A DNA stretch of 63,698 bases from Terriglobia bacterium. Lineage in GTDB: Bacteria > Acidobacteriota > UBA6911. A program made the position numbers and the translations under genes. Location: positions 1-63,698 of the forward strand of contig JAIQGI010000041.1 in NCBI GenBank assembly GCA_020072565.1, given 5' to 3'. The notes beneath the pieces were generated by a model. It had not been told where the DNA came from. It did not search any database and was given only the letters and a program-made list of their open reading frames with translations. This document shows, in pieces, positions 4,952 to 61,882 of the stretch (positions are counted from its first letter, which is position 1; each line of letters starts with the position of its first letter).

Positions 4952-5059
4952 TTACACGGCTATCTCACCACGACATTTGCCCCTGCCACGTGCATCTTCG
5001 ACTGTCCCCCGATATAGCAGGCATGTACCAGTCTGCCACTCGCGCCGGAAAACCGGTGC

Positions 5060-5236
5060 CTATTTCTTGTCGATTACCCGCTTGGAGAGATCGACGGACC
5101 CTTGGCGTACACGCACTGTGAGATCAGATCGTCCCTTTATAGAAGCCTTAAGGGTACTTCTTTTGCAAGGCTGCACCTTTTCAGGATCGATGGACCAACC
5201 CAGTAGGTAATATCTGGATATCTCGCTTATGGTCGT
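5060..5236 (-). pseudogene. C-terminal remnant of a VWFA-related protein
   Basis: The minus-strand frame reads SEISRYYLLGWSIDPEKVQP and ends RVRQGSVDLSKRVIDKK. It aligns by eye with ASRYYLLGWHIDPDLLVP...LRQGAMDLSKLIPK in the intact protein at 59621-61882. Only this stretch of about 55 residues remains. The homology stops at the GGACACCC repeat cluster (5252-5319), so the gene may have been cut by that element. Confidence 0.65.
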
Positions 5237-57323: not shown

Positions 57324-57413
57324 TGGCGGAGGAAGTAGGATTCGAACCCACGAGGGAGTTGCCCCCCTAACGGTTTTCAAGACCGCCGCCTTCGACCACT
57401 CGGCCATTCCTCC
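57324..57413 (-). tRNA. tRNA-Ser (TGA anticodon)
   Basis: A 90-base serine tRNA with a long variable arm. The acceptor stem GGAGGAA/TTCCTCC, anticodon TGA in CTTGAAA, T-loop GGTTCGAATCC and an encoded CCA end are all present. It reads UCA-family serine codons. Confidence 0.95.
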
Positions 57414-57492: not shown

Positions 57493-58317
57493 TCAATTGT
57501 GGCCACGCGGCGCCAAAACCATCACAACAAAACTAGGGACGCCACCCACCATGTTTTGCCCATTTGAGACATTACTGGTTCTTTCCATTTGTGCAAAATA
57601 GGGTGGTGTCCCTTGCTCCACGCTCACGATCTTGTCGTAAGTCATGCGCACGGTCTGCCCGCTCACGATTGTTTCCAGGGAATGCGCAAACAATATGTCG
57701 CCAATCTTTTTGTAGTCGCTGGGGTAACCTTCGGATTCCACATCCTGCCCCCTAATGCCCATTCTGGAAGTGATCTTGACGGGGAGGAAGGTCGTGGCAT
57801 CGACAAAGTAGGTGGAGGTAATGCCGACTTTGAGTGTGACTCTGAGCTTATAGGCGGGCGAGCCCTTGACGTCCTCCTTGCCGAGAAGTTCGACGGTATT
57901 ACCGGCGGCCTTGATGCCGCTCAGGGCGCCTATGGAACCTTCGAGACTCGTGCCGGTGAGCTTGGAAACCGTGGCCTCGTCCAGCTTCTGCGGCGCCGAC
58001 GAGCCCGCGAGCGGGTTTATCATCCAGCCGGTAGTGCCGTCGTACGCCGTAACGACACTCTGGCCCATGGCAGACGTCTCGGTGCGCACCTTGTTGGGAC
58101 GCTTGATCGAGACGGTTGTCGCCATTTCCATTTGGGCATCCCCCATCGTTATCCTGGCAGTCATCCTGAGGGTCTGGACTTTGCTTATGGCCTCGGCGCC
58201 GCCAATGGCATCCTCATTTTTTTTCAGGATCTGGTCAAGCGTGAGATCCTGTGCCGGCGCTGCAATGCCGATGAGAACGATAAACAATAAAGCGTACAGA
58301 CTGCGGCTTATGAGCAT
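57493..58317 (-). CDS. LolA-like exported protein with repeat-derived C-terminus
   Basis: A 274-residue protein with a signal peptide (LYALLFIVLIGIAAPAQ) and a LolA-like lipoprotein-sorting domain: DLTLDQILKKNEDAIGG, RMTARITMGDAQMEM, GTTGWMINPLAGSSAPQKL, TYFVDATTFLPVKI, then MTYDKIVSVE. From there the last 33 residues (QGTPPYFAQMERTSNVSNGQ onward) are encoded by the palindromic element at 57535-57613, so the native C-terminus has been replaced. AGGAGGAG precedes the ATG. It may still work, since the core fold is complete. Confidence 0.75.
   Translation of the reverse strand: MLISRSLYALLFIVLIGIAAPAQDLTLDQILKKNEDAIGGAEAISKVQTLRMTARITMGDAQMEMATTVSIKRPNKVRTETSAMGQSVVTAYDGTTGWMINPLAGSSAPQKLDEATVSKLTGTSLEGSIGALSGIKAAGNTVELLGKEDVKGSPAYKLRVTLKVGITSTYFVDATTFLPVKITSRMGIRGQDVESEGYPSDYKKIGDILFAHSLETIVSGQTVRMTYDKIVSVEQGTPPYFAQMERTSNVSNGQNMVGGVPSFVVMVLAPRGHN
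57535..57613. repeat. GGGACGCC palindromic element, copy 1 (inside a gene)
   Basis: AGGGACGCCACCC at one end pairs with GGGTGGTGTCCCT at the other. The whole element matches copy 2 at 58732-58807 with few changes. It lies inside the 3' coding end of the LolA-like gene. Confidence 0.8.
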
Positions 58318-58545
58318 GGCTCCTCCTGAATCCCCAAGGTCAACTCACCGGATAATACGTGTGCGTTCTCCAATTGGTTCGTTGGCAACAAGAATGGGTG
58401 GGGAACAAATTGGAAACAATAGGTGCTGAAAACCGGTCAAAATCGCTACTGTTACAATCCATTTTATTGGATCACCAAAAACCGCCGATTTATAACCTTC
58501 TGTACCGTAATCGGTGCTAAGGCCAGAAGCGTGCCCCCTATGACT

Positions 58546-58731
58546 CTATCTCCACCTATCGCCAGGCTTCTTGATGTAGTGCGCAAATACATACGTCCAG
58601 GGAATCACGATAATGTCCAATACGATTCCGATCAACATTCCCTGCGTAAGGTCGCTTGAGCGGCCAGCCGCCCGCAGAGGAACATACACTGCGAGCACCC
58701 AAAACGTCTTGTAGAACAGCTGCACGAAACC
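58546..58731 (-). pseudogene. C-terminal fragment of a membrane protein
   Basis: The minus-strand frame reads PGFVQLFYKTFWVLAVYVPL, then a helix (GMLIGIVLDIIVIPWTYVF) and AHYIKKPGDRWR before a stop. The N-terminal part ends at the palindromic element (58732-58807), which carries an in-frame stop. It is a gene interrupted by the repeat; the family was not recognised. Confidence 0.5.
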
Positions 58732-58807
58732 AGGGACGCCACCCTATTTTGCCCATTTGAGAACATGACTTGTTCTTTCGACTTATGCAAAATAGGGCGG
58801 CGTCCCT
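58732..58807. repeat. GGGACGCC palindromic element, copy 2
   Basis: GGGACGCCACCCTATTTTGC pairs with GCAAAATAGGGCGGCGTCCC: arms of 20 bases with one mismatch and a 36-base loop. Copy 1 is at 57535-57613. Confidence 0.85.
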
Positions 58808-59096
58808 AGTTGCCAAACGTGCCGAACAATGGGCCGTGTAGCAGATACGCCGCGAACCTGGCGCTGCAGACACACCGCAGCGCGATTAGCTTCGAAAGAA
58901 TTTCGCTTTTCGACAACTGTTACAGTGCCTCTTTTTTGGAAGCCTAAAACCGGGCGATTGTAACAGAATTGTCACGCTACAGCGTCAACAATGGGGCAAA
59001 ACAGGGCAAGGTGCGATAAGAAGGGAATCGCGCTAAATTGCGGCTGACAAAGGGATTTAGTTGATTCTTAACGGTTTAACAAAAACCCCCGATAAG
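58808..59096. other. AT-richer gene-free stretch
   Basis: Between the palindrome and the tRNA-Ser fragment. It contains several TTGTAACAG/TGTTACAG-like pieces (CTGTTACAG near 58920, TTGTAACAGAATTGTCAC near 58960) but no gene. Confidence 0.4.
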
Positions 59097-59139
59097 CGTT
59101 TCAAGACCGCCGCCTTCGACCACCCGGCCATTCCTCCGC
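59089..59139 (-). pseudogene. Partial tRNA-Ser copy
   Basis: The minus strand matches the 5' half of the tRNA-Ser at 57324-57413, from GGAGGAATGGCCG through the D arm to the anticodon loop, with one change in about 40 bases. It then decays near the variable arm, and the T arm is missing. It cannot be functional. Confidence 0.8.
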
Positions 59140-59620: not shown

Positions 59621-61882
59621 ATGTTGCGGAAACATTCCTGCGTGCATCCTGTGAAGGCTCTCTCCCTGCTCTTACTGTTCTGCCTGGAGGCACGACCTTT
59701 CTACACCCAAAGTCAAACGCCCGCAGCTACGCAGAAGACCACCGCGGAAGCCACCATCCGTGTCGGAGTCGGATTGGTCCAGACCGACGTCACGGTTTTC
59801 GACCGCCAGGGCCGCTTCGTCGACGATCTGAAGGCGGATCAGTTTCAACTGCTGGTCGACGGAAAACCGCAATCGATCGATTTTTTCGAACTGGTGACTG
59901 AAGGAGGCCCGACGGCGGAGAAGGCGTCGGCCAGAGTCACGCCATCCACTTCCACTCCGAGCCGGAAAACGTCTATCCGTCCGGACGCCGGCCGCACTCT
60001 CCTCTTTTTCCTCGATGACCTTCATCTTTCGGCTGACAGCATGATGCGATCACGGACCGCGCTCCTGAGCCTGATCGATCAGAGCATGGGTGTGAATGAC
60101 CGGGCGGCCATCTTTACCGCTTCCAGGCAACTTGGGTTCCTGCAGCAGCTCAGTGATAACAAGTCCGTTTTGCGCATGGCTGTGGCTCGATTGACATTCA
60201 ACAATGAAGCGATCCGGGACCTCGCACGGCCAGTCATGACCGAGGCGCAGGCGGCAGCCATAGAACAGGCGGATCCAGACGTTTTCGGATACTTTGTGGA
60301 CCAAACCGTAAGCGCGGACGGATTGCCCAATGATGCACAGGGTAGAGCCATGGCGGCGGAAATTGTACGCGGCCGTGCCGCCGCGCTTGCTCATGTTTCC
60401 GCAGAATTTTCGGCACGATCTCTGACCACACTTGGGAACGTCGTGCAGTCATGCGCGGCTCTGCCGGGGCGCAAGTTGCTCTTTTTTTTATCCGACGGCT
60501 TTATTCTGCAACCCCAGAAAGCAGACATCGTGTACCGGCTGAGACTGGTCGCAGAAGCTGCGGCGCGTGCGGCGATCGTGATTTACACCCTGGATACGCG
60601 TGGTCTTATGGTGGGCCTCCCGAATGCAGCCTCTCCCCAGGTGTTTGCCGTCCCGCTGCCTCCACGCTCTGGTGCCGCGGCTGGCGGAGAGGTTTCGACG
60701 GGCACTGCAACCGCGGAGCCCGCGGGGCGTCTGGAGCGTGGTCCCAACGAAGTGCTGGCGGCGCAGGATGGACTCAATGCCCTGGCGTCAGACACCGGCG
60801 GACGATTCTTCAAGAACACCAACGCGTTGGACACCGCCATCGTCGCCGGCATGGAAGAAGCCTCCCGCTATTACCTTTTGGGATGGCACATCGATCCTGA
60901 CCTCCTGGTGCCGGGAAAGTACAGCTCGATCAGGATAAAGCTCAAAGATCGCCCGGACTTGAGTGTCCACCTGCGCCAGGGCGCGATGGATCTCTCCAAG
61001 CTCATTCCCAAATCCCAGCCCAAGGCCGGCAAAGCGGCGCCGGCAAAAGCTGCTCCGAATACTGAACTGGTCCAGGCGCTTCAATTTCCCTGGCCTATCG
61101 AAGAGCTGCCCATATTCCTTTATGCAGGGTATTACTACCAGCCCGAAAAAGGGTATGTTCTGGATATATCCTTTCAAGTCGAAGTCGAAGGTCAAGATTC
61201 CGGCGCAAGTTCCGGCAAGGATGATCGGATCGAGGTCATGGGCATTGTAGCCAACCGAGAGGGTGGCAACGTCGATAGATTCAAGGACAGCATCGGCCAG
61301 TCTGCAGATCCCTCGAGTCCGGCGCAGCCCGGGAAGGGAAGATTTGCCGGTGTCCGTTTGGTGGGCATTGAGCCGGGCATTTATCAGGTGCGCGTTGCGG
61401 TGCGCGATCCCAAAAGCGGCCGTTTAGGCAGCGCCCACCAGTGGGTCGATGTGCCGCGTGCGGATCTTCTTCCCACGCCAAACAAAAAGATTTTATTGGG
61501 CAGCATCTTTCTGAGACGGAAACAAATCACCGAATCCCCTGAAACCAGTGTGTCGCGCGGCGCCTTCGATGAACAGCCGTTCAGTGCAACGCGCCGATAC
61601 CTGCCCGCCCGCTTGCCGTACTCGGTGCAGATTTATAATGCGGCCAGCGCCTCCATTTCGATGCAGACAAAAATATATCGAGGCAACCAGGTCGTTTCCC
61701 AATCACCCTCAAGACCCCTTGCTGTCGGCGCTGCTGAGATCAGCGGGCCATTTTTTGTCAACAGCGAGGTATCGCTGGAAGGCCTCCCTTCCGGCTCCTA
61801 CGTCCTGGAAGTGATCGCGACTGAATCCTCGGTAAATGCGGTCGCGAAACAACAGGTCCCCTTCTGGATCCAAGCCAAATGA
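59621..61882 (+). CDS. VWFA-related Acidobacterial protein with C-terminal extension
   Basis: A 753-residue exported protein. Signal segment (about 10-28), a leading beta domain (VQTDVTVFDRQGRFVDDLKA), a von Willebrand A-like domain (LLFFLDDLHLSADSMMRSRT; about 125-330) and the family's closing segment (SRYYLLGWHIDPDLL, then SVHLRQGAMDLSK). About 270 further residues of beta-sandwich character follow (FAGVRLVGIEPGIYQVRVAV). The MIDAS-like site reads DDLHLS. Function is unknown in this group. The fragment at 5060-5236 is its closest relative in the window. Confidence 0.82.
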   Translation: MLRKHSCVHPVKALSLLLLFCLEARPFYTQSQTPAATQKTTAEATIRVGVGLVQTDVTVFDRQGRFVDDLKADQFQLLVDGKPQSIDFFELVTEGGPTAEKASARVTPSTSTPSRKTSIRPDAGRTLLFFLDDLHLSADSMMRSRTALLSLIDQSMGVNDRAAIFTASRQLGFLQQLSDNKSVLRMAVARLTFNNEAIRDLARPVMTEAQAAAIEQADPDVFGYFVDQTVSADGLPNDAQGRAMAAEIVRGRAAALAHVSAEFSARSLTTLGNVVQSCAALPGRKLLFFLSDGFILQPQKADIVYRLRLVAEAAARAAIVIYTLDTRGLMVGLPNAASPQVFAVPLPPRSGAAAGGEVSTGTATAEPAGRLERGPNEVLAAQDGLNALASDTGGRFFKNTNALDTAIVAGMEEASRYYLLGWHIDPDLLVPGKYSSIRIKLKDRPDLSVHLRQGAMDLSKLIPKSQPKAGKAAPAKAAPNTELVQALQFPWPIEELPIFLYAGYYYQPEKGYVLDISFQVEVEGQDSGASSGKDDRIEVMGIVANREGGNVDRFKDSIGQSADPSSPAQPGKGRFAGVRLVGIEPGIYQVRVAVRDPKSGRLGSAHQWVDVPRADLLPTPNKKILLGSIFLRRKQITESPETSVSRGAFDEQPFSATRRYLPARLPYSVQIYNAASASISMQTKIYRGNQVVSQSPSRPLAVGAAEISGPFFVNSEVSLEGLPSGSYVLEVIATESSVNAVAKQQVPFWIQAK

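Follow-up and report, generated by a model that had tools for sequence, protein, structure and literature searches.

REPs have been described inside ORFs and at C-termini, and REP termini can give TAG stop codons (PMC3733652). In-frame MITE and RPE fusions have been reviewed (PMC2229807, PMC10969869). In TIRtrons and TIRYTs, inverted repeats (TIRs) flank Y1 HuH transposase genes and are also present as dispersed dimers; some TIRYTs are acidobacterial (PMC3733652), and most belong to subclass 2.1 (PMC6006769). E. coli REPs situated within 15 nt of stop codons are cited in PMC12306157. An earlier sequence-only reading of the locus described here had called the insertion of REP-like DNA as protein tails rarely documented, which is too strong given these REP, MITE and RPE reports.

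The window is the whole stretch of DNA analysed, 63,698 nt. It is contig C41 of a draft genome of 7.46 Mb, which is split over 135 contigs. Its relevant features are as follows.

57324..57413, minus strand: tRNA-Ser (anticodon TGA), intact; read as the attR side of an integrated element
57493..57612, minus strand: predicted non-native tail, 39 codons plus stop, ~26 codons from the element and the remainder from flanking DNA
57531..57613, minus strand: REP1, palindromic element copy 1; its minus-strand reading codes GTPPYFAQMERTSNVSNGQNMVGGVPS, with which the non-native tail begins
57613..58317, minus strand: homologous part of a LolA-like / DUF2092-like periplasmic protein gene, 235 codons, 3' end truncated at the element edge
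58546..58728, minus strand: 3' remnant of a small membrane-protein gene, unnamed family, 59 codons, 5'-truncated at the inner edge of copy 2
58728..58811, no strand assigned: REP2, palindromic element copy 2; 25-bp arms, near-perfect palindrome
59099..59137, minus strand: 5' half (nt 1-39) of tRNA-Ser(UGA), which keeps the ancestral upstream region; read as attL

The two palindromes and their setting

Two related palindromic copies had been proposed from the sequence and both are present, at 57531-57613 and 58728-58811. They have the same orientation, arms of 20-25 nt and 83% identity with the loop included. The loop is common to the two and is unlike that of the other copies from the same genome in the alignment. 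Modeled as single-stranded DNA, copy 2 folds into a 25-bp stem with a free energy of -29.2 kcal/mol (z -10.6). Copy 1 has four extra bases in one arm and a weaker fold (z -2.8); its palindrome is decayed.

Copy 2 was first thought to interrupt the membrane-protein gene; however, nothing of the 5' half of this gene is present, and what remains is its 3' 59 codons. A 161-column profile of the membrane family aligns only over its last ~64 columns, from VQLFYK beside the element edge, and the N-terminal ~95 residues are absent in every frame upstream, beyond copy 2. The closest homologues in the phylum are ~145-160 aa. A longer query from the membrane family shows no match in the window's own genome at E<=0.001. 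The gene is thus a truncated remnant rather than one split by an insertion.

The LolA-like gene is cut at the inner edge of copy 1 and the membrane gene at that of copy 2, and neither missing half adjoins the cut. Together with the shared loop and the overall identity of the two copies, this is the pattern that would be left if the palindromes bounded a 1.1-kb passenger and the whole moved as a composite unit, cutting both genes; the passenger would hold the membrane gene's 3' half and the LolA-like gene's 5' part. However, neither a donor site nor another copy of the segment is seen in the genome, no such composite was seen elsewhere, and deletions beside elements on a decaying island give the same pattern. 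A composite unit is therefore considered improbable. An inversion between copies 1 and 2 was also considered; translations of the outer flanks, read by eye, gave nothing recognisable.

The two tRNA copies are 1.7 kb apart, and the DNA between them is read as the remnant of an integrated element that holds both palindromes and both truncated genes. No integrase was recognised in these 1.7 kb. A tandem duplication of tRNA plus palindrome was rejected; the order is tRNA-REP1-REP2-tRNA half. In several relatives, the intact tRNA is preceded by sequence like that preceding the window fragment (ending accgc followed by GGAGG, or similar). In G004, the tRNA's contig also carries a relative of the gene that comes after the fragment in the window (59621-61882). 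For these reasons the fragment most likely represents the old 5' half, and the 1.7-kb insertion would have supplied a new one. At locus L129 of G010, a similar tRNA-Ser 5' fragment is followed by related sequence, with 73% identity over 186 bases, fragment included. This shared fragment-adjoining sequence probably marks the end of a single family of elements that integrate in tRNA-Ser.

Some further observations concern the tRNA fragment. The displaced 5' half, 1.7 kb off, looks like the footprint of an integration at the anticodon loop. G010 has several similar tRNA-Ser 5' fragments; others are found in G019 and, where a contig ends, in G002. Window positions 58955-59098 and L129 near 5028-5211 show that the sequence adjoining the fragment is related between two genera.

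The C-terminal end of the LolA-like protein

Copy 1 is inside a 274-aa ORF on the minus strand (57493-58317) and supplies its end. The ORF has weak matches, under the profile cut-offs, to the DUF2092 and LolA profiles, and a Shine-Dalgarno-like AGGAGGAG precedes the ATG. The arm of copy 1 reads GGG ACA CCA CCC TAT TTT GCA in this ORF. The protein tracks its homologues up to KIVSV and then reads EQGTPPYFAQMERTSNVSNGQNMVGGVPSFVVMVLAPRGHN, and the departure is at the element edge. The tail represents residues 236-274, ~26 of which come from the element and ~11-13 from DNA beyond it. The earlier view that copy 1 provides the tail of the LolA-like protein holds as to the end of the ORF but not as to its length, which had been put at 33 codons: 39 are non-native and only ~26 of these are from the element.

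A native C-terminus is found in 13/13 LolA homologues, including a paralogue in the same genome with 62% identity, and none has a tail of this type. Near its end, the C-terminus that they share has an aromatic F and, in most cases, a proline, e.g., IDDGLFSLPAK. This native end was not found beyond copy 1 in any frame; the best score is -2.2 bits, where shuffled sequences reach 1.7 and the paralogue 31. Because all 13 homologues end natively and the end is absent beyond the element, the tail is non-native and the native last ~15 codons are lost, not displaced. The comparison of relatives that had been suggested thus supports a mobile REP-like palindrome as a protein tail. It refutes the alternative that the tail is native and the palindrome a coding feature of the LolA-like protein family, against which there is also the presence of relatives of the same element between genes elsewhere; nothing was found in favour of this alternative, and it has a negligible probability. 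A search of the genome with the tail peptide gave matches to the two copies in the window and to nothing else.

No empty site was found for copy 1. A clean insertion cannot be demonstrated, since the native 3' remainder of the gene is missing, i.e., it has been deleted; the order of insertion and deletion at copy 1 we infer.

The preferred reading, to which we assign a probability of about 0.8, is that a REP/TIR-type palindrome with arms like Y1 TIRs replaced the 3' end of the LolA-like gene and would be read as a tail. Pseudogene decay can fit the sequence as well. Here a deletion would have truncated the LolA-like ORF, the palindrome would have adjoined it by chance, and the tail would be an accident of frame without a consequential product. 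The remnant island carries another truncated gene, the copy 1 palindrome is itself decaying and the native C-terminus of all homologues has been lost, all of which are consistent with decay. On the other hand, the 235 homologous codons are intact and are preceded by a good ribosome-binding site, and the genome's own paralogue is 62% identical. Decay alone is assessed at slightly less than an even chance; it differs from the replacement by a palindrome mainly in whether the product matters.

An element family at stop codons

The genome has 27 arm-like sites, as opposed to four with a reversed pattern. A covariance model built from eight copies detects 13 distinct palindromes at 13 places, so the search for more copies reveals a multi-copy family. 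The same model has many matches in G012, G002 and G001, which are other genera of the taxonomic family, and in G004, of the same genus; dozens of members are found across the taxonomic family. A strict pattern of the full palindrome has no match in a collection of 84,980 species; the members differ in arms and loop.

Y1 (IS200-like HuH) transposases (PF01797) have eight matches in the genome. On contigs C46 and C63 (27167), the transposase gene is flanked by arms like those of the palindromes, in inverted orientation. GGGAC-type arms are present on either side of the gene in 45 of the 76 named relatives of the C46 transposase whose flanks are long enough, compared with one in the shuffled control, and GGGGACGCTACCC is the reading of most arms among the relatives listed. 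As the arms match inverted repeats that flank Y1 transposase genes, the palindromes are best read as putative non-autonomous REP/TIR-type elements, kin to the ends of a Y1 transposase lineage, and the transposase may mobilise them. This ties the GGGGACGCTACCC palindromes to a widespread Y1 lineage across several phyla. The transposases with GGGGACGCTACCC ends (L239-L318) are found in Proteobacteria, Planctomycetes and others.

Two side observations were made on repeats in G000. Contigs C42 (at its start), C6 and C46 (at their ends) terminate near these palindromes, as is expected for repeats in a short-read assembly. Loci L035 (G000:C13:22741) and L038 (G000:C34:93653) are two copies of a ~100-bp element with the arm TCAAAAACGGGTGACGTCCC; the L035 copy, in C13, is within an ORF that resembles a decayed DDE-type transposase.

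The elements are concentrated behind genes. Thirty of 64 are at most 15 nt from a gene's stop codon, compared with ~4 expected from intergenic space, an enrichment that is approximate in that the gene caller was simple and home-made and the elements are related to one another. Of 66 copies surveyed, 61 are clear of called genes and two are read as tails. The element end AAATAG, followed by GGGACGC, can supply a stop codon: six ORFs are terminated by a TAG that belongs to the element and is followed immediately by GGG ACG (GGG GCG in one). This TAG is in the same phase as the tail in the window, where the codon at that position is CAA. Stop-adjacent elements as a whole have no phase bias (17/16/15), and the fixed phase is therefore confined to the class with an element-supplied TAG.

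These properties suggest a sequence of steps for the preferred reading. The REP/TIR-type family would settle preferentially just behind stop codons, and copy 1 would have come to lie across the 3' end of the LolA-like gene; both are part of a decayed element that is integrated in tRNA-Ser(UGA). With CAA in place of the element's TAG, translation would continue through the palindrome in the phase GTPPYF and give a predicted 39-residue tail. The loss of a stop codon is not proven, since the outer edge of copy 1 (GAGCAAGGGAC) also resembles the ends of TAG-less elements (GAAACAAGGGAC at C95). Either copy 1 formerly had TAG or TAA at the CAA position, an ancestral stop that we infer to have been lost, or it is of a TAG-less subfamily. 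The tailed LolA-like protein is a predicted product, and PPYFAQMERTSNVSNGQNMVGG is a peptide that would mark its translation; LGTLPGSADDYSGMRPPR would do so for a G004-like case.

A TPM-domain gene of G004 continues for 22-24 codons within an element, read in the same phase, and ends ...DEVIDRKKLGTLPGSADDYSGMRPPRDA. The window's genome has a 75% orthologue of this gene that ends ...DEVIDRTRNTGIS and is element-free. Other full-length TPM homologues also end shortly past the corresponding position without an element. G004 provides a second, independent tail. A simple route to tails is for an element without a TAG of its own, whether never present or later lost, to land on a stop codon. A broader proposal is that the family is targeted to the region of stop codons and that its members often carry a stop of their own, that stop loss or absence is a repeated route by which host proteins gain GT(P/L)P-type tails, and that some of these could be functional; this is speculative and rather unlikely.

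Comparison with known palindromic elements

As in TIRYT TIRs, the arms are inverted around a Y1 transposase gene (C46, C63) and are also found in multi-copy palindromes. The published TIR motif GGGGWSAS (TIRYT) is near the GGGGACGC of the window family and is matched by GGGGACAG in G001 copies; the main arm (GGGGACGCTACCC, with GGGGACGC as the motif stretch) differs from it at one position (position 7). The string GGGGACGCTACCC was not found in the literature searched.

The elements resemble GTAG REPs and REPINs in being short palindromes by the 3' ends of genes, with termini that give TAG stops. Their arms, however, are unrelated in sequence to those of GTAG REPs and REPINs, and they do not have the GTAG tetranucleotide of GTAG REPs at the 5' foot of the hairpin; by inspection they end in AAATAGGGGACGC or AAACCAGGGACGC. 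The E. coli REPs cited above are alike in location relative to stops; they lie behind the stop codon, whereas copy 1 is within the ORF.

A palindrome in frame within a host protein is also a property of Rickettsia palindromic elements (RPE) (PMC2229807, PMC10969869), to which the present case is likened by location only. RPEs occur in frame within many genes, where they code for a conserved peptide. Copy 1 instead takes the place of a 3' end, and most of its family is intergenic, with 61/66 copies outside called genes.

The event is of a known kind: both REP-supplied stops and REP-coded tails have been published. What is added here is a particular family, two tails with homologue controls, and the link between the phase of the tail and the element's own stop. 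The window and G004 provide two checkable cases of a mobile palindrome becoming protein sequence, one of them with a 75% element-free orthologue.
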